This document shows positions 46,852 through 54,389 of a stretch of DNA of 64,000 nucleotides, in pieces. The position numbers and the translations under genes are program-made. The stretch is from contig NZ_LR778174.1 in assembly GCF_902810435.1 (NCBI RefSeq), positions 1,041,501 to 1,105,500 on the forward strand. Reading direction: 5' to 3'. This stretch comes from Veillonella parvula (lineage in GTDB: Bacteria; Bacillota; Negativicutes; Veillonellales; Veillonellaceae). The notes under the pieces are model-generated. The model ran no database searches and had not been told where the DNA came from. It was given only the letters and a program-made list of their open reading frames with translations. The stretch's first letter is position 1, and each line of letters begins with the position of its first letter.

Positions 46852-47421
46852 ATGAAAGTAAAATTGAAGCCATATATGACAATTATATTAATCCTATGTG
46901 TTTTAGTAGGAATTTATTTCCTATGGCCTATTATAACAGATGAAAGCGATTCTGTCTTAGTTGAAGGAGCAATAGATGGAAATTCTTCTATATCAACTGT
47001 TGAACAAATATCCAACAAACCTATAGCTTATATTACGGGCGCCGTAGTTTCACCTGGTTTATATGAGTTTGAAAGTAGTGCTACTGTAGGTGATGTAGTT
47101 CAGTTAGCAGGTGGGCTATTACCTTATGCTGATGTAGAATCAGTCAATATGGCAAAGTCGGTTAATGCGGGAGATCATATCCACATAGTATTTAACTTCC
47201 ACGGTAATCCAGAGGTTTTATTGCGCGGTAACAAAATTAATATCAATACAGCTTCTGCAAAAGATCTTGATGCATTACCAGGCATAGGACCCGCTATGGC
47301 AAAAAGAATTGAAGAGTATCGTTCACAAAAAGGACCCTTTACATCCGTTGAAGGTATCAAGGGGGTGAAGGGCATCGGTGATGGCGTATTTAAGAAGATT
47401 AAAGATAAAATTACAATCTAA
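46852..47421 (+). CDS. comEA: Competence protein ComEA (DNA receptor)
   Basis: A 189-residue protein with one N-terminal membrane helix (about 9-27), an SLBB domain (about 55-120; AYITGAVVSPGLYEF, VNMAKSVNAGDHIHI) and a C-terminal helix-hairpin-helix DNA-binding domain (NINTASAKDLDALPGIGPAMAKRI, about 128-189). It binds double-stranded DNA outside the inner membrane and passes it to ComEC. TAGGAGGT lies before the ATG. comEC begins inside its 3' end, 41 bases before the stop. Confidence 0.95.
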   Translation: MKVKLKPYMTIILILCVLVGIYFLWPIITDESDSVLVEGAIDGNSSISTVEQISNKPIAYITGAVVSPGLYEFESSATVGDVVQLAGGLLPYADVESVNMAKSVNAGDHIHIVFNFHGNPEVLLRGNKININTASAKDLDALPGIGPAMAKRIEEYRSQKGPFTSVEGIKGVKGIGDGVFKKIKDKITI

Positions 47422-49606
47422 ATTTAGGAATACAGAACGAGCGTTTGAGGAATCAATCTTCAATACTCAAGTATTAGTTAATACAAAGCCATTTATAACT
47501 TATAGCCAATGGGCACATACTATATTGGGATCTATAATAATTGGCACTATATTAGGATATGGTAAATATTATCCCGTACTTAGTCAAATGCATTATATTT
47601 TTGCGATTGCCTTAGCTATTATTGGTGTAACTGTTATTAAAATAATGCAATCTTATTGTAGGTGGCGTTTATATGCCAATTTATTAATATTAGTTTTTGC
47701 TGCAATGGGATTATCCTATTATCAAACAGACTTACGAATTATTAACTATAACAGCTATACATCTTTCTATTTACAGCAAGAAGGAGAATATTTTGGCACT
47801 GTCGTATCATATCCTGAATTAGTAACTATCGATAAACAGGAATATTACAAATATAATGTAGAGTTACATGGATTACATCCCTATAAAGATACTGCTAAAA
47901 ACGACTATATTAAGGCACAGGGTCGATTACAGATTTACTCAAAGGTATCTACTACAAAGTATTTAATACGGCTAGGGGATCAAGCAATAATTGAAGGTAC
48001 ACCAAAAAGTTTATTTCTCATCGAAGAGGAAGGACGCATTAATCTTAGAGGTAGATATATGAGCTCTAATACAAGAGGTCGAATCTATGATGGTGTATAT
48101 CGATCTGCTACTAATAAAGATTTACAAGCATTCCACTTTCAAGAAATATTTTCTGAAAAACTATATGGAAAAAGTTTATATTTATGTGGTCAAATACGAG
48201 AATCTATTGAAAAAAATATTGCTAGTAATCTAGATGGTCCACAAAAGGTATTAGCACAAGCCTTATGCTTGGGTGGTCATTATAGTGAGCTAGGGGAAGA
48301 GCGAATGAAAGATTTTGCTTATACGGGCCTCATCCATATTTTATCTATCTCTGGCTCACATATTGCACTGCTATTAGCCTTAATTTACGGTTTAGGAAGA
48401 CTCGTTAAATTACGGAAGCGCACATGCTTAATTTTAGGTATATTAGTAGCTTGTATATATTGCTGTATCGTTGGTGGAGATGCACCTGTTATACGTGCAA
48501 TGATGATGAGTATACTCATGTGCATGGCTTATGTAAAAGGACGATTATATCAAGCTAAACAGGCTTTATGTATATGCGCTATTCTATGTCTTGTATATGA
48601 TCCTTTTTCTTTGTTTGATGTAAGCTTTCAACTATCCTTTGGTGCAACCTATGGTTTACTTATATGGGGGAAGGTACTATATGAACGGATACAATGGCTA
48701 CCAAAATGGATTAAAACACCCCTTGTGTTATGTGTGTCAGCACAGTTGCTCATCTTGCCGCTACAGCTGTATTACTTTCACTATATTAGTATTGCTAGTT
48801 TGTTAGCAGCTTGCATAGTAGCACCTATATTAGATATATCCATCATTTTAATCTTTATAAGCACTGTTATTAGCTATGTAATGTCTATATCGTTTCTATG
48901 GTCTTTGATAGATGCACTATTACGCATATTGTTATATTTAAATCATGTCCTAGGGCGTAGTGGTAGTTTACTTTGGCTTGGTATGATGCATCTTTGTTGT
49001 GTTTATGTATATTATACTTTACTAGGTCTGTTTACGTACTTTTTGACACATAAGAAGGAGTATACTGTATATGTAGTGATGTCCTTATTATGCATGGTTG
49101 CAGCCTATGGTGTTTCATACTATGTGACTCATCATCACAAGAATACGTTAATCCATTATATTCCTATGAAACAGTGTAATGTGCTGCTGTGCATAGCACC
49201 AAACCATGAACAGGCATATTTGTTAATCGATGCACCAGATTATATTAAAACGATACCTAATGAAAGACAAATTAATCAAACTATTAGGGCATATGGCATG
49301 AATCCTAGAATGGTAAAAGTTAAGTACTTTCACAGTAACGGTTTGGCAAGGGTAATATATAAAAATGGTATTAACCAAATAGTCGTATATAATGGACAAA
49401 GTAGAGAAAAAAATCTAAAATTAAATGATAAGGCTAATGTTTTATTTATAACGAGTCGATTTAGTGTAATGCATGAAATTGATCGTATTTCACCGCGTAG
49501 TACGGTTTTGTTTAGTAGTCCTCATGGTGCTTTACGCGATGTTGATCCATCATCAGAACATATGTATATAATGGGATACAGCTTTATTAAAGATATCTAT
49601 CTGTGA
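47381..49606 (+). CDS. comEC: Competence protein ComEC/Rec2-like DNA channel
   Basis: A 741-residue membrane protein that would form the channel for single-stranded DNA. N-terminal membrane segments and an OB-like DUF4131 region (about 60-230) are followed by the competence domain with ILSISGSHIALLLALIYGL and ASLLAACIVAPIL (about 270-550). The last 190 residues follow the strand pattern of the usual beta-lactamase-like domain (VLLCIAPNHEQAYLLIDAP) but lack the HxHxDH metal motif, so this part is degenerate. Start ATG at 47381 (GAAGGG upstream) lies within comEA; GTG at 47378 is an alternative. Confidence 0.88.
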   Translation: MAYLRRLKIKLQSKFRNTERAFEESIFNTQVLVNTKPFITYSQWAHTILGSIIIGTILGYGKYYPVLSQMHYIFAIALAIIGVTVIKIMQSYCRWRLYANLLILVFAAMGLSYYQTDLRIINYNSYTSFYLQQEGEYFGTVVSYPELVTIDKQEYYKYNVELHGLHPYKDTAKNDYIKAQGRLQIYSKVSTTKYLIRLGDQAIIEGTPKSLFLIEEEGRINLRGRYMSSNTRGRIYDGVYRSATNKDLQAFHFQEIFSEKLYGKSLYLCGQIRESIEKNIASNLDGPQKVLAQALCLGGHYSELGEERMKDFAYTGLIHILSISGSHIALLLALIYGLGRLVKLRKRTCLILGILVACIYCCIVGGDAPVIRAMMMSILMCMAYVKGRLYQAKQALCICAILCLVYDPFSLFDVSFQLSFGATYGLLIWGKVLYERIQWLPKWIKTPLVLCVSAQLLILPLQLYYFHYISIASLLAACIVAPILDISIILIFISTVISYVMSISFLWSLIDALLRILLYLNHVLGRSGSLLWLGMMHLCCVYVYYTLLGLFTYFLTHKKEYTVYVVMSLLCMVAAYGVSYYVTHHHKNTLIHYIPMKQCNVLLCIAPNHEQAYLLIDAPDYIKTIPNERQINQTIRAYGMNPRMVKVKYFHSNGLARVIYKNGINQIVVYNGQSREKNLKLNDKANVLFITSRFSVMHEIDRISPRSTVLFSSPHGALRDVDPSSEHMYIMGYSFIKDIYL

Positions 49607-49617
49607 AAGGAGGGAAC

Positions 49618-50595
49618 ATGGCACATATTCAACTCATCTATGGCGACGAACCACAATTAATTGAAGAAGAAAAACGTAAATTTTTAAGTGCCTATCCAGA
49701 CCTTCCAGTGACTGTATTAGATGATGAGGTGGGCCCACAAAAAATAAGTGAAAAACTATGTGAAGATTCACTTTTTGGCGATCAAAAGGTCTTCTGTTTA
49801 GTTAATTTGCCCATTATTCGTAAAAGTGGCAAAAATAGTGATGCTTGGGTTCCATTGTATGAACTCCTCATGGAATATAATGGAGATAATCCTATCGTTT
49901 TGATCTATCATGATATGATTGATAAACGGATCAAGCAGAATAAAGAGATTTTAGAAAAAATACCAAATCATCAATGTAAGCGTCTTGAAGGGGCAGACCT
50001 CGTGATGTGGATACGTCAGTACTGTACGTCTAACGGCTTTAAAATGACGCCTGATGCACAGGAATATGTGGCTCATCTCATTGATTTGTGGCAAGAGGTA
50101 CCTGTTTCTTTTATGAGAACTGAGTTTGACCGATATTTTTTACAGATTACTGAGGAAAAGGTTATTACCAAAGAATTTCTCGAAGAAAACGGTAGTGACT
50201 ATGGAGCCAAAAATATTTTTACTTTTAAAGAGGCTCTATTAAAAAGAGATATCGATACATTACTTGAACTATTTCCATTTATGTTCGGCTATAAAGAATT
50301 AGACCGTGCTATGAGCTATATTGAGGGGCAATTACGTTTACAGTTGCTAGTTAGCGAATGTCGCCAAGTGGGTATGTCTGTTCAAGCCATACAAAACTTA
50401 TGTAAGGATCATGATTCGTCATTTAAACCATATCCGATTAAGCTAGCTTACGAGGCGAGTCCTAGAATTTCAATTAAGGCTCTACGAGCTTTATTAAAAG
50501 GGCTTTATGAGATTATATTAGATAGCCGTAGCAGCAAGGGCGATATTTGGCGATTTAGAGATTTATGTATTACCTACTGTGGGTATAAGGGATAA
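49618..50595 (+). CDS. holA: DNA polymerase III delta subunit
   Basis: A 325-residue clamp-loader subunit that opens the beta sliding clamp. The start IQLIYGDEPQLIEEEKRKFL, the SLFGDQKVFCLVNLP region and the C-terminal LYEIILDSRSSKGDIWRFRDLCITYC fit the HolA family. The ATG at 49618 follows AAAGGAGGG closely; a GTG at 49603 would add five residues. It is the only AAA+ loader subunit in the window and lies directly before polC, so the two replication genes are cotranscribed with comEC. Confidence 0.9.
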   Translation: MAHIQLIYGDEPQLIEEEKRKFLSAYPDLPVTVLDDEVGPQKISEKLCEDSLFGDQKVFCLVNLPIIRKSGKNSDAWVPLYELLMEYNGDNPIVLIYHDMIDKRIKQNKEILEKIPNHQCKRLEGADLVMWIRQYCTSNGFKMTPDAQEYVAHLIDLWQEVPVSFMRTEFDRYFLQITEEKVITKEFLEENGSDYGAKNIFTFKEALLKRDIDTLLELFPFMFGYKELDRAMSYIEGQLRLQLLVSECRQVGMSVQAIQNLCKDHDSSFKPYPIKLAYEASPRISIKALRALLKGLYEIILDSRSSKGDIWRFRDLCITYCGYKG

Positions 50596-50597
50596 AA

Positions 50598-53500
50598 ATG
50601 AAAGTACGTTATCGTGTTGTACCAAAACAGAATAAGAAATCATCCTTCTATGTGAACTGTCATAGCCAACATGTGACGATTCAAGCAGCAGACTCTGCAT
50701 TTTCCACATTGCTTAGTCTACGTGAAAGGTTGTCTGCATGGTATAAGGAAAAAAATATCTCTTTTGATGATATTCCAACAAATACAGATACAGCTTGTTG
50801 CTTTGCTTGGAAAGTAGATACTGAAACGGGTGAAGGGTTAGATACCTATTATTATGGCGGTGGCTGTGGTGCTGGTGAATGGATTGAAGCGGCTGAAGCA
50901 CAACGTGAAGCTGAAGAGGCTAAAAATCAAGAACCTAGAGGCAAGTCTTTTGCGGGTTATGACCAACAAGATGAATATGATGATGTAGACGAAGATGATT
51001 TTGCCCCATTTGTAGAAGCTATTGAATTAGGCTATTTCAACAATAGTCCAGTTGTTGTGTCTCGTTCTAATCATACCGCTGCCGAATCTAGCAGTAGTGA
51101 TACTATCGCATCTGTGAGTAGTACACCTAAAGCAAGCAAAGGCTTTGGACCTAAAAAAACTACAAAATCTACGGCTAAAGGAAGTGAAGGGGATGGTAAA
51201 TATCCTCGTCGTGTACCAAAGGATGCACCTACTGATGAAGGCATGATTTTAGGACCTAAAATTGAAGGGGTCACATCTAAAATCATGGGCACCTTGGATA
51301 CACCTAGTGTAATTTTTGAAGGTGTCTTTGTTGGTTTAGATAAACGTGATACTAAGACGGGTAAAAGTATCGTTAACGGCAGCATTGTAGATGATACAAA
51401 TAGCATTAAATTTATCAAGTTTACGAACAGTCCTGAAGAAGGGGATGAATTATTAAAACAACTAAAAGGCTTACAACGGGTTCGCGTACAAGGTAGTGTC
51501 AGCTTTGATGATCGTTTTGACAAGGATTATATCCTTTCTATTCGCAGTATTGAAGCAATAGAAACTACTAGTGTGGAACGAACTGAAAATCGTCCGGACT
51601 CTCGTGTGGAACTCCACTTACATACTAAGATGAGTGATAAAGATGCTCTCGTATCTGTAAAAGACTTGTTTAAAACAATTAAAAAATGGGGTCATCCTGC
51701 GGTGGCTATTACGGACCATGGCGTAGTACAAGCCTTCCCAGAAGCGCAAGCTCTTGGTAAGGAGTTAGGTGTTAAAGTTATCTATGGTGTAGAAGGTTAC
51801 CTCATCGAAGATGAAACGGTAATAAAAGATGAAGAGCCTGTACTAGATAAAAAGAAGAAGAAGGAAAAAGATAAACGGTACCATATTATTTTATTAGCTA
51901 AGAATATGGTTGGTTTGCGTAATTTATATAAAATGATTTCCATTTCTCACCTTGAACATTACAAGGTTCGTCCGCGTTTGCCTCGCTCCGTTATTGAAGA
52001 ACATCGTGAAGGTATTATCATCGGTTCAGCCTGTGAAGCAGGGGAGCTTATGCAATCCATTGTTCGTGGAGCTACAAAAGAAGAGCTTTTGGAAGTAGCA
52101 TCCTTCTACGATTATCTTGAGATTCAACCACATACTAACAATACGTTTTTGGTTCGTAAAGGTCTCATGCCCGACGAGCAGGCACTTATTGATATGAATA
52201 AGACCGTTATCGAATTAGGAGAAGCCTTAAACAAACCTGTATGTGCTACTTGTGACGTTCACTACCTGACACCAGAAGAAAAAATTTATCGTGAAATCAT
52301 GTTAACTGCATGTGGTTATCCAGATGCAGACGAACAGCCAGATTTACATTTACGTACTACAGATGAAATGCTTGCGTCCTTCCCTTATTTAAGCGAAGAG
52401 AAAGCATACGAAGTAGTCGTTACTAATACACGTGCTATTAATGATAGCATTGAAGATATTAAGCCAGTGCCTGATGGTACATATTCACCTAAGATTGAAG
52501 GTGCTGACGAAGCTTTCACAGAAATGTGCTATAGAAATGCGAAGGCTATTTATGGTGATCCATTGCCTCGTGTCGTACAAGAACGTCTCGATTATGAATT
52601 GGATTGTATTATTTCCAATGGTTACGGCGTATTGTATTACATCGCTCATAAGCTGGTAAAAAAATCTCTTGATGATGGGTATCTCGTAGGTTCCCGTGGT
52701 TCCGTAGGGTCATCCTTTGCCGCTACCATGTCTGAGATTACAGAGGTAAACCCATTACCGCCTCATTATGTATGCCCTAACTGTAAATATTCAGAATTCT
52801 TTGAAAAGGGTGAATATGCAGGGGGCTTTGACTTGCCTCGTAAAGACTGTCCTGAATGCGGTCATGCTTTACAAACAAATGGACATGATATTCCATTTGC
52901 AATTTTCCTTGGTTTTGAAGGTGACAAGGTTCCAGATATTGACCTTAACTTCTCCGGTGATTACCAAGCAAAAGCTCACAAATATACGGAAGAACTATTT
53001 GGTCGTGACAATGTATTTAAAGCCGGTACAATTGGTACTATAGCTGATAAAACTGCTTTTGGTTATGTTAAAAAATACGCCGAAATTCGAGATATACAAG
53101 CCCGCAATGGATTCTTTGAACATTTAGCGAAAGGCTTTACAAATGTAAAGAATACTACGGGACAACACCCTGGTGGTATTATGGTATGTCCTCGAGATAT
53201 GGATGTGCATCATTTTACGCCCATACAACATCCAGCGAATAAAAAGGAAAGTGGCGTATTAACGACACACTTTGATTATCACTCCATCGAAGGTCGTATG
53301 ACTAAGCTTGATATTCTGGGCCATGATGATCCCACAATTATTCGTATGCTAGAGGATTTGACAGGTATCGACGCCAAGACAATACCATTTGATGATCCAA
53401 AGACATTGAGCTTGTTCTCCTCTACAGAAGGGATTGGCTTAACACCTGAACAATTACAAGGTGACCAAGTAGCTAGTTTGGCTGTTCCAGAATGTGGCAC

Positions 53501-54389
53501 GAAATTCGTACGGGGCATGCTTGAAGACTCTCGTCCCCAAACATTCTCTGATTTAGTTCGTATTTCTGGCTTTTCACATGGAACAAACGTATGGCTCGAC
53601 AATGCGCAAGATCTCATTAAAAATGGTACTTGTAAGTTGAATGAAGCCATTTCAACTCGTGATGACGTAATGAACTTCTTGATTCATCGCGGCATGGATA
53701 GAAAGCATAGCTTCTTTGTAATGGAAAACGTGCGTAAAGGTAAGGGTATTGAAAAACGAAATAAACAAGGGCAAGCTACGACGGAATTTGAAGCAGAAAT
53801 GCGTGAAAATAATATTCCTGAATGGTTTATTGAATCTTGTAAAAAGATTTCCTATCTATTCCCACGGGCACATGCGGTAGCTTACGTAATGATGGCTTTC
53901 CGTATTGCTTGGTTTAAGGTATATCATCCATTGGCATTTTATGCAGCTTACTTCTCCATTCGTGCGAAAGCCTTCGATTTACGGATCATGACAGGGGACC
54001 TCAAAACACAATTGACCGAGTTTAACCGTATCAAGGCTCTTGATCGTGCTGCCAGTCCTAAAGATAAGGACCTTATGAGTGCTTTGGAAGTATCTATGGA
54101 AATGTATCAACGGGGCTATCGTTTTATCAATGTAGACATTCAACACTCCGAAGCTAGACGCTTTAGCATTAAGGATGGTGCTCTATTACCTCCATTCTTA
54201 GCTATTGATTCCCTTGGTGAAACAGTAGCTGATGCTATCGTCGAGGAAAGAAATGAACGTCCATTTACATCTCTAAAAGACTTACAACGCCGTTGTAAAG
54301 TATCAAATACCATCATTGATCTTATGAAAGACCTCAAATGCTGTGGTGAACTTCCTGAAGACGAACAAATGTCACTATTTGGAGCATAA
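50598..54389 (+). CDS. polC: DNA polymerase III PolC, apparently lacking the exonuclease domain
   Basis: The 1263-residue replicative polymerase of Firmicutes. Order: N-terminal domain, acidic and Ser/Lys-rich linker (about 105-215), OB fold (about 215-325; GPKIEGVTSKIMGTLDTPS), PHP domain first half (H340-L-H342, TDHG, E399), PHP second half (from H429; CATCDVHYL), then the polymerase core with GSRGSVGSSF, a CPNC/CPEC zinc finger, catalytic PDIDLNFSG (D780, D782), LDILGHDDPT, and the C-terminal duplex and tau-binding end. In usual PolC (about 1440 residues) a DnaQ-like 3'-5' exonuclease of about 170 residues lies inside PHP; here residues 400-428 are only a Lys/Glu linker. The polymerase and PHP metal residues look intact. 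Confidence 0.95.
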   Translation: MKVRYRVVPKQNKKSSFYVNCHSQHVTIQAADSAFSTLLSLRERLSAWYKEKNISFDDIPTNTDTACCFAWKVDTETGEGLDTYYYGGGCGAGEWIEAAEAQREAEEAKNQEPRGKSFAGYDQQDEYDDVDEDDFAPFVEAIELGYFNNSPVVVSRSNHTAAESSSSDTIASVSSTPKASKGFGPKKTTKSTAKGSEGDGKYPRRVPKDAPTDEGMILGPKIEGVTSKIMGTLDTPSVIFEGVFVGLDKRDTKTGKSIVNGSIVDDTNSIKFIKFTNSPEEGDELLKQLKGLQRVRVQGSVSFDDRFDKDYILSIRSIEAIETTSVERTENRPDSRVELHLHTKMSDKDALVSVKDLFKTIKKWGHPAVAITDHGVVQAFPEAQALGKELGVKVIYGVEGYLIEDETVIKDEEPVLDKKKKKEKDKRYHIILLAKNMVGLRNLYKMISISHLEHYKVRPRLPRSVIEEHREGIIIGSACEAGELMQSIVRGATKEELLEVASFYDYLEIQPHTNNTFLVRKGLMPDEQALIDMNKTVIELGEALNKPVCATCDVHYLTPEEKIYREIMLTACGYPDADEQPDLHLRTTDEMLASFPYLSEEKAYEVVVTNTRAINDSIEDIKPVPDGTYSPKIEGADEAFTEMCYRNAKAIYGDPLPRVVQERLDYELDCIISNGYGVLYYIAHKLVKKSLDDGYLVGSRGSVGSSFAATMSEITEVNPLPPHYVCPNCKYSEFFEKGEYAGGFDLPRKDCPECGHALQTNGHDIPFAIFLGFEGDKVPDIDLNFSGDYQAKAHKYTEELFGRDNVFKAGTIGTIADKTAFGYVKKYAEIRDIQARNGFFEHLAKGFTNVKNTTGQHPGGIMVCPRDMDVHHFTPIQHPANKKESGVLTTHFDYHSIEGRMTKLDILGHDDPTIIRMLEDLTGIDAKTIPFDDPKTLSLFSSTEGIGLTPEQLQGDQVASLAVPECGTKFVRGMLEDSRPQTFSDLVRISGFSHGTNVWLDNAQDLIKNGTCKLNEAISTRDDVMNFLIHRGMDRKHSFFVMENVRKGKGIEKRNKQGQATTEFEAEMRENNIPEWFIESCKKISYLFPRAHAVAYVMMAFRIAWFKVYHPLAFYAAYFSIRAKAFDLRIMTGDLKTQLTEFNRIKALDRAASPKDKDLMSALEVSMEMYQRGYRFINVDIQHSEARRFSIKDGALLPPFLAIDSLGETVADAIVEERNERPFTSLKDLQRRCKVSNTIIDLMKDLKCCGELPEDEQMSLFGA

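Follow-up and report, generated by a model that had tools for sequence, protein, structure and literature searches.

The window, by which I mean the whole 64,000-nucleotide stretch of Veillonella parvula DNA that was analysed, carries a polC gene on the forward strand, and the features of this locus are as follows.

49603..50595, + strand: holA, clamp-loader delta subunit-like, abutting polC (named by eye from sequence)
50598..54389, + strand: polC, PolC-type DNA polymerase III alpha, 1263 aa, without a DnaQ-type exonuclease (Exo) domain (open reading frame, Pfam, NCBIfam, Foldseek)
51309..51587, + strand: OB domain region, residues ~238-330 (phmmer alignment to 3f2b from residue 238; strand-rich in the model)
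51600..51794, + strand: PHP domain, first part, residues 335-399, with H340, H342, D349, H374 and E399
51795..51881, + strand: Lys/Glu-rich loop of 29 residues (400-428), predicted to be disordered, at the Exo site of other PolCs
51882..52427, + strand: PHP domain, second part, residues 429-610, with H429, C479, D553 and H555
52515..54077, + strand: polymerase core, residues ~640-1160, with catalytic D780, D782 and D905
54120..54326, + strand: helix-hairpin-helix region HHH_6, residues 1175-1243 (Pfam)
54366..54380, + strand: QMSLF, C-terminal clamp-binding-like motif, residues 1257-1261 (read from sequence)

H340 is encoded from position 51615, E399 from 51792 and H429 from 51882, and the interval 51792-51884, where a preliminary description of this DNA had noted the missing exonuclease, runs from the codon of E399 to that of H429. 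The 29 residues between these two ligands read GYLIEDETVIKDEEPVLDKKKKKEKDKRY. Immediately upstream of polC, comEC and the holA-like gene occupy positions 47378-50595 of the window; the same pair precedes polC in Veillonella and Megasphaera-type loci and went undetected within the 5 kb examined in Sporomusaceae-type loci.

The equivalog models, the OB domain and overall fold, and the three catalytic aspartates all identify the protein as a PolC-type polymerase III alpha. It passes the PolC equivalog models NF001688 (1470 bits, cut-off 873) and TIGR01405 (1354.6 bits, cut-off 1043.45) of NCBIfam, and Pfam resolves an unbroken PHP domain (338-510), polymerase, finger and HHH_6 domains. The top Foldseek matches of its model are PolC (TMq 0.77), the best solved relatives being the enzymes of Geobacillus (3F2B, ~50% identical in the fold match) and Enterococcus (9QPC, ~40%). 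D780, D782 and D905 are invariant across every PolC covered by the alignment, QMxLF stands at the C-terminus in the consensus of 27 relatives, and identity reaches 97% to V. infantium, 98% to Veillonella sp. T11011-6 and 100% in one further genome of the genus. Given an alignment of 27 relatives, AlphaFold models the PHP domain at high confidence and assigns pLDDT <50 to the basic part of the loop (residues ~412-424), which on this model is probably disordered. PolC and DnaE1 are similarly conserved, PolC evolving about as slowly as DnaE1, which argues that PolC is not decaying. An Exo domain is usually regarded as a hallmark of PolC; the Veillonella protein lacks this typical but non-obligatory feature, a DnaQ-type Exo inside PHP.

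The absence is genuine, as the preliminary description had supposed: a Pfam search of the protein returned no RNase_T match, PHP is unbroken, and a 29-residue loop occupies the insertion site. Nor does the domain lie elsewhere in the protein, since a search of the whole 2.15 Mb genome matched RNase_T in three other genes and never in polC. An assembly gap or chance can be rejected as the cause, the frame being open and the same architecture recurring in all Negativicutes PolCs examined. The Lys/Glu-rich loop is not an Exo remnant: the nearest relatives have 12-13 residues at this position and only Veillonella has the 27-29-residue form, so that the loop is a Veillonella expansion of a 12-13-residue one. 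Across the Negativicutes loci measured it spans 5-37 residues, mostly 12-13 outside Veillonella, against ~209-217 at the same site in Exo-bearing PolCs of the wider phylum.

Timinskas et al. (2013, PMC3919608) had already described Clostridia and Negativicutes whose PolC lacks Exo, and the earlier suspicion that this might be a known feature of Negativicutes was thus well founded; here the absence extends across the class. The Veillonella enzyme belongs to this subtype, being an Exo-less PolC of a Negativicutes genome that also encodes DnaE1, and nothing essential differs: it has the same OB, uninterrupted PHP, polymerase and helix-hairpin-helix domains and the same DnaE1 partner. The loss of Exo from PolC has been known since 2013. 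Timinskas et al. (2013) suggested DnaE1 as the possible main replicase and raised the prospect that PHP proofreading is perhaps more widespread in C-family polymerases.

Wherever PolC was matched among 150 sampled Negativicutes genomes, its frame is ~1050-1350 aa long and uninterrupted at the Exo site; the exceptions are G148 and G095, in which PolC is partial or broken, and G114, where the match is of DnaE type only. RNase_T was never found inside a PolC frame in the 45 Negativicutes genomes checked. Two genomes of family f12 each carry two PolC-like genes, one copy having an internal stop in G066 and one being a 900-aa frame in G058. The 149 genomes sampled from the GTDB phylum of G151, a sample that takes in Negativicutes (three genomes recur at the same coordinates), yielded ~66 Exo-less, 42 Exo-bearing and 5 fragmentary PolCs, and 36 genomes with no PolC. 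Hence ~66 of the 108 classifiable PolCs in this even sample are Exo-less, 51 of the 66 calls being sequence-checked and the others made from an uninterrupted match and the length of the frame. Timinskas et al. (2013) gave far lower shares, 6% of all PolC and 16% of the PolC+DnaE1 set, a difference that probably reflects the more even sampling of species here. In a second phylum (centred on G150) all 120 sampled PolCs look Exo-bearing, a call made where the match breaks at, or begins after, residues 403-432 or later; the insert at the Exo site measures 213-235 residues in the 28 that were fully mapped. TGA occurs within the PolC reading frame of many genomes of that phylum (L117-L146), as a code in which TGA specifies Trp would produce.

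The Negativicutes PolCs, all Exo-less, form one clade with support of 97 on the OB+PHP tree and 98 on the polymerase-core tree, and Exo-bearing lineages lie outside it on both, which argues for one loss for the class. Distribution and trees together show a single loss of Exo, in the Negativicutes ancestor. Loss recurred several times outside the class; the polymerase-core tree implies 4 changes of Exo state and the OB+PHP tree 11, so only "several" is safe as a count. In one PolC (L212, genome G398) what is left of Exo has VVLALATTG as motif I, without the catalytic D and E, and the sister of this PolC (L218, genome G369; support 100) has no Exo and only a 39-residue loop; judged by these sequences, the pair appears to represent Exo loss in progress. 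A further PolC (L193) has an 84-residue linker without Exo. New relative to 2013 are the class-wide extent, the single loss at the base of Negativicutes and the higher share in an even sample, as well as the genomes described below in which, besides Exo, an intact PolC PHP or every RNase_T exonuclease is missing.

The preliminary description also held that the PHP metal ligands look intact, and all nine are present (H340, H342, D349, H374, E399, H429, C479, D553 and H555). Each aligns with its counterpart in Mycobacterium tuberculosis (Mtb) DnaE1, and together they fit the pattern HHDHEH[C/H]DH of C-family polymerases that proofread through PHP as Mtb DnaE1 does, an enzyme experimentally shown to proofread with its PHP exonuclease, an activity abolished by changing D23 or D226 (PMC5636811). 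This comparator is a DnaE1 and not a PolC, and its PHP activity is experimental, whereas nuclease activity and a proofreading role of the Veillonella PHP are inferred from its sequence. Mtb DnaE1 also has a 29-residue loop at the same place, probably a coincidence, since other Negativicutes mostly have 12-13 residues there. The PolCs of Geobacillus and Enterococcus, the two solved Bacilli enzymes, naturally possess Exo (removed for the 3F2B crystal) and read TGNVHYL, with N at the D553 position, where the Exo-less Veillonella enzyme reads TCDVHYL; the Mtb study states that the G. kaustophilus enzyme, in which one ligand is altered, has no PHP exonuclease activity (PMC5636811). PHP sites can have other functions, a pyrophosphatase role being claimed for E. 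coli DnaE (PMC4822814), and the literature search returned no biochemistry on any Exo-less PolC.

Outside Negativicutes the ligands are intact in all 48 Exo-less PolCs examined (50 loci minus three from Negativicutes, plus L193); within the class they are intact in 39 of 40 members of a second set by program and in the fortieth (L267) by eye, and in all Veillonellaceae genera but one. They are equally intact in Exo-bearing relatives, namely 37 of 39 in the phylum of G151 (L207 and L216 carry a D-to-N change) and 28 of 28 fully aligned PolCs in that of G150, so that intactness is the ancestral state and alone is no sign that PHP has taken over from Exo. Pairwise PHP identity at matched polymerase divergence was 0.62 and 0.61 in Exo-less groups against 0.56 and 0.54 in Exo-bearing ones, which suggested stronger constraint on PHP after Exo loss, a comparison with only 3-4 independent pairs. 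Measured against a distant common outgroup, the difference disappeared and PHP constraint was not greater in Exo-less than in Exo-bearing PolC.

The exceptional genus, which is Veillonella-like and also Exo-less, has the ligands HHNHEHCNH, both catalytic PHP aspartates having become Asn. It comprises six isolates (CHU740, VA137, VA139, VA142, 3310 and 3891) and two further loci (in all L025, L026, L037-L041 and L070). PHP identity to Megasphaera is 53.5% in this genus against 63% in its sister genera, while the polymerase core stands at 69-70% in both, and the same PHP-only drop appears against other Negativicutes at matched core divergence. A PHP that falls while the core holds steady indicates that relaxation is confined to PHP, and its decay in this genus but not in the sister genera argues that the Veillonella PHP is held by selection. 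In these species the DnaE1 PHP is intact and the tail of the free-standing DnaQ has changed to TQDTFF or TQDAFF. With neither Exo nor an intact PHP, PolC-borne proofreading must be dispensable at least there.

A second kind of natural knock-out lacks the exonuclease family itself. No RNase_T protein was found even at E 10 in 9 of the 150 Negativicutes genomes, each at least 90% complete (G001, G013, G019, G043, G051, G088, G095, G096 and G148); these were re-searched in a small set at E 10, since the first-look filter misses some (G018 has one). The PolC PHP is intact in all four such genomes examined (G001, G013, G043 and G051) and the DnaE1 PHP in all six examined. PHP thus appears to be the only recognised proofreader candidate in these genomes, RNase_T being the sole exonuclease family searched.

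I therefore regard PolC's own PHP domain, backed up constantly by that of DnaE1, as the most likely proofreader in Veillonella, a reading that I hold with about even confidence because all nine ligands are intact and the domain is under constraint in Veillonella. On this reading PolC is a working enzyme without Exo whose own metal-dependent PHP nuclease site would keep fidelity; its partner polymerase DnaE1 would supply a constant second proofreader through its PHP site; and in Veillonellaceae help in trans may come from a free-standing DnaQ whose tail resembles a clamp-binding motif. The wider proposal, that the PolC PHP is the replicative proofreader throughout Negativicutes and the other Exo-less lineages and that one Veillonella-like genus has since lost it too and so has a PolC devoid of any proofreading site, is plausible and put forward more tentatively; it would amount to a switch of proofreader within a single polymerase family.

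The preliminary description had allowed for proofreading by a separate protein, and a genome-wide search for a free-standing DnaQ did find one, a DnaQ-type exonuclease of 209 aa (G000:C1:527929-528555). It matches RNase_T at 4.7e-25 over the full model, carries DFET, AHNAKFD and HHYALDDA, which supply the DEDDh catalytic residues, and ends in the clamp-motif-like EQMSFF; its nearest NCBIfam model is PRK06195, below cut-off. As a DEDDh-type exonuclease with a clamp-motif-like peptide it resembles E. coli epsilon (DnaQ) and is a possible trans proofreader. Tethered to the clamp through EQMSFF next to PolC's QMSLF, this protein could proofread in trans, a rather unlikely account of how the missing Exo is replaced. 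It is present in all 23 Veillonellaceae sampled, and every copy in Veillonella and a sister genus keeps EQMSFF (EQLSFF in one) although the preceding linker has diverged. However, the tail is missing from the copies read in genomes of Megasphaera-like and Sporomusaceae type, and the nine RNase_T-negative Negativicutes genomes have no such protein at all. At E 0.001, 116 of the 150 Negativicutes genomes yield a DnaQ match, the weaker matches including other families. Outside the class, 5 of 30 Exo-less genomes carry free-standing DnaQ frames of 180-335 aa, as do 7 of 30 Exo-bearing ones, and 11 of the 30 Exo-less genomes have no match to the 209-aa protein; being neither enriched with Exo loss nor present in many Exo-less genomes, DnaQ is no general substitute for Exo. 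The idea that it is the liberated Exo of PolC is unsupported, as it falls in a separate long-stemmed clade away from the PolC Exo domains. In Veillonellaceae the 209-aa protein may be an added proofreader.

Veillonella also encodes a UvrD/PcrA-like helicase of 862 aa (L001:868-3456, - strand; G000:C1:1897216-1899804) with a DnaQ-type exonuclease inserted at residues ~489-655, and many genomes of Veillonellales and of family f12 have RNase_T-bearing frames of 858-919 aa. By profile the helicase Exo is nearest to PolC Exo; the tree that sets the 209-aa protein apart did not place its origin.

It is less probable again that DnaE1, with its intact PHP, carries out accurate bulk synthesis or corrects PolC in trans. 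DnaE1 is the only candidate constant everywhere, its PHP having all nine ligands in each of 30 genomes, the genus with HHNHEHCNH and those without DnaQ among them; ~36 of the 149 genomes of the G151 phylum show only DnaE, and its possible role as main replicase has been noted above (Timinskas et al., 2013). PolC nevertheless retains its catalytic residues and clamp motif, changes about as slowly as DnaE1, and has a PHP under selection in Veillonella. Finally, that PolC does not proofread, mismatch repair carrying the load and the PHP site doing something else, is very improbable given the PHP constraint in other genera and the intact sites in nearly all Exo-less PolCs, even though the genus with HHNHEHCNH survives with neither nuclease in its PolC.

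With PolC's own PHP as the preferred candidate, the natural knock-outs, that is, the genus with a dead PolC PHP and the RNase_T-negative genomes, allow the three candidate proofreaders to be compared directly. Should Exo be absent from most species of the G151 phylum that have PolC, the basis of their replication accuracy becomes a testable question.
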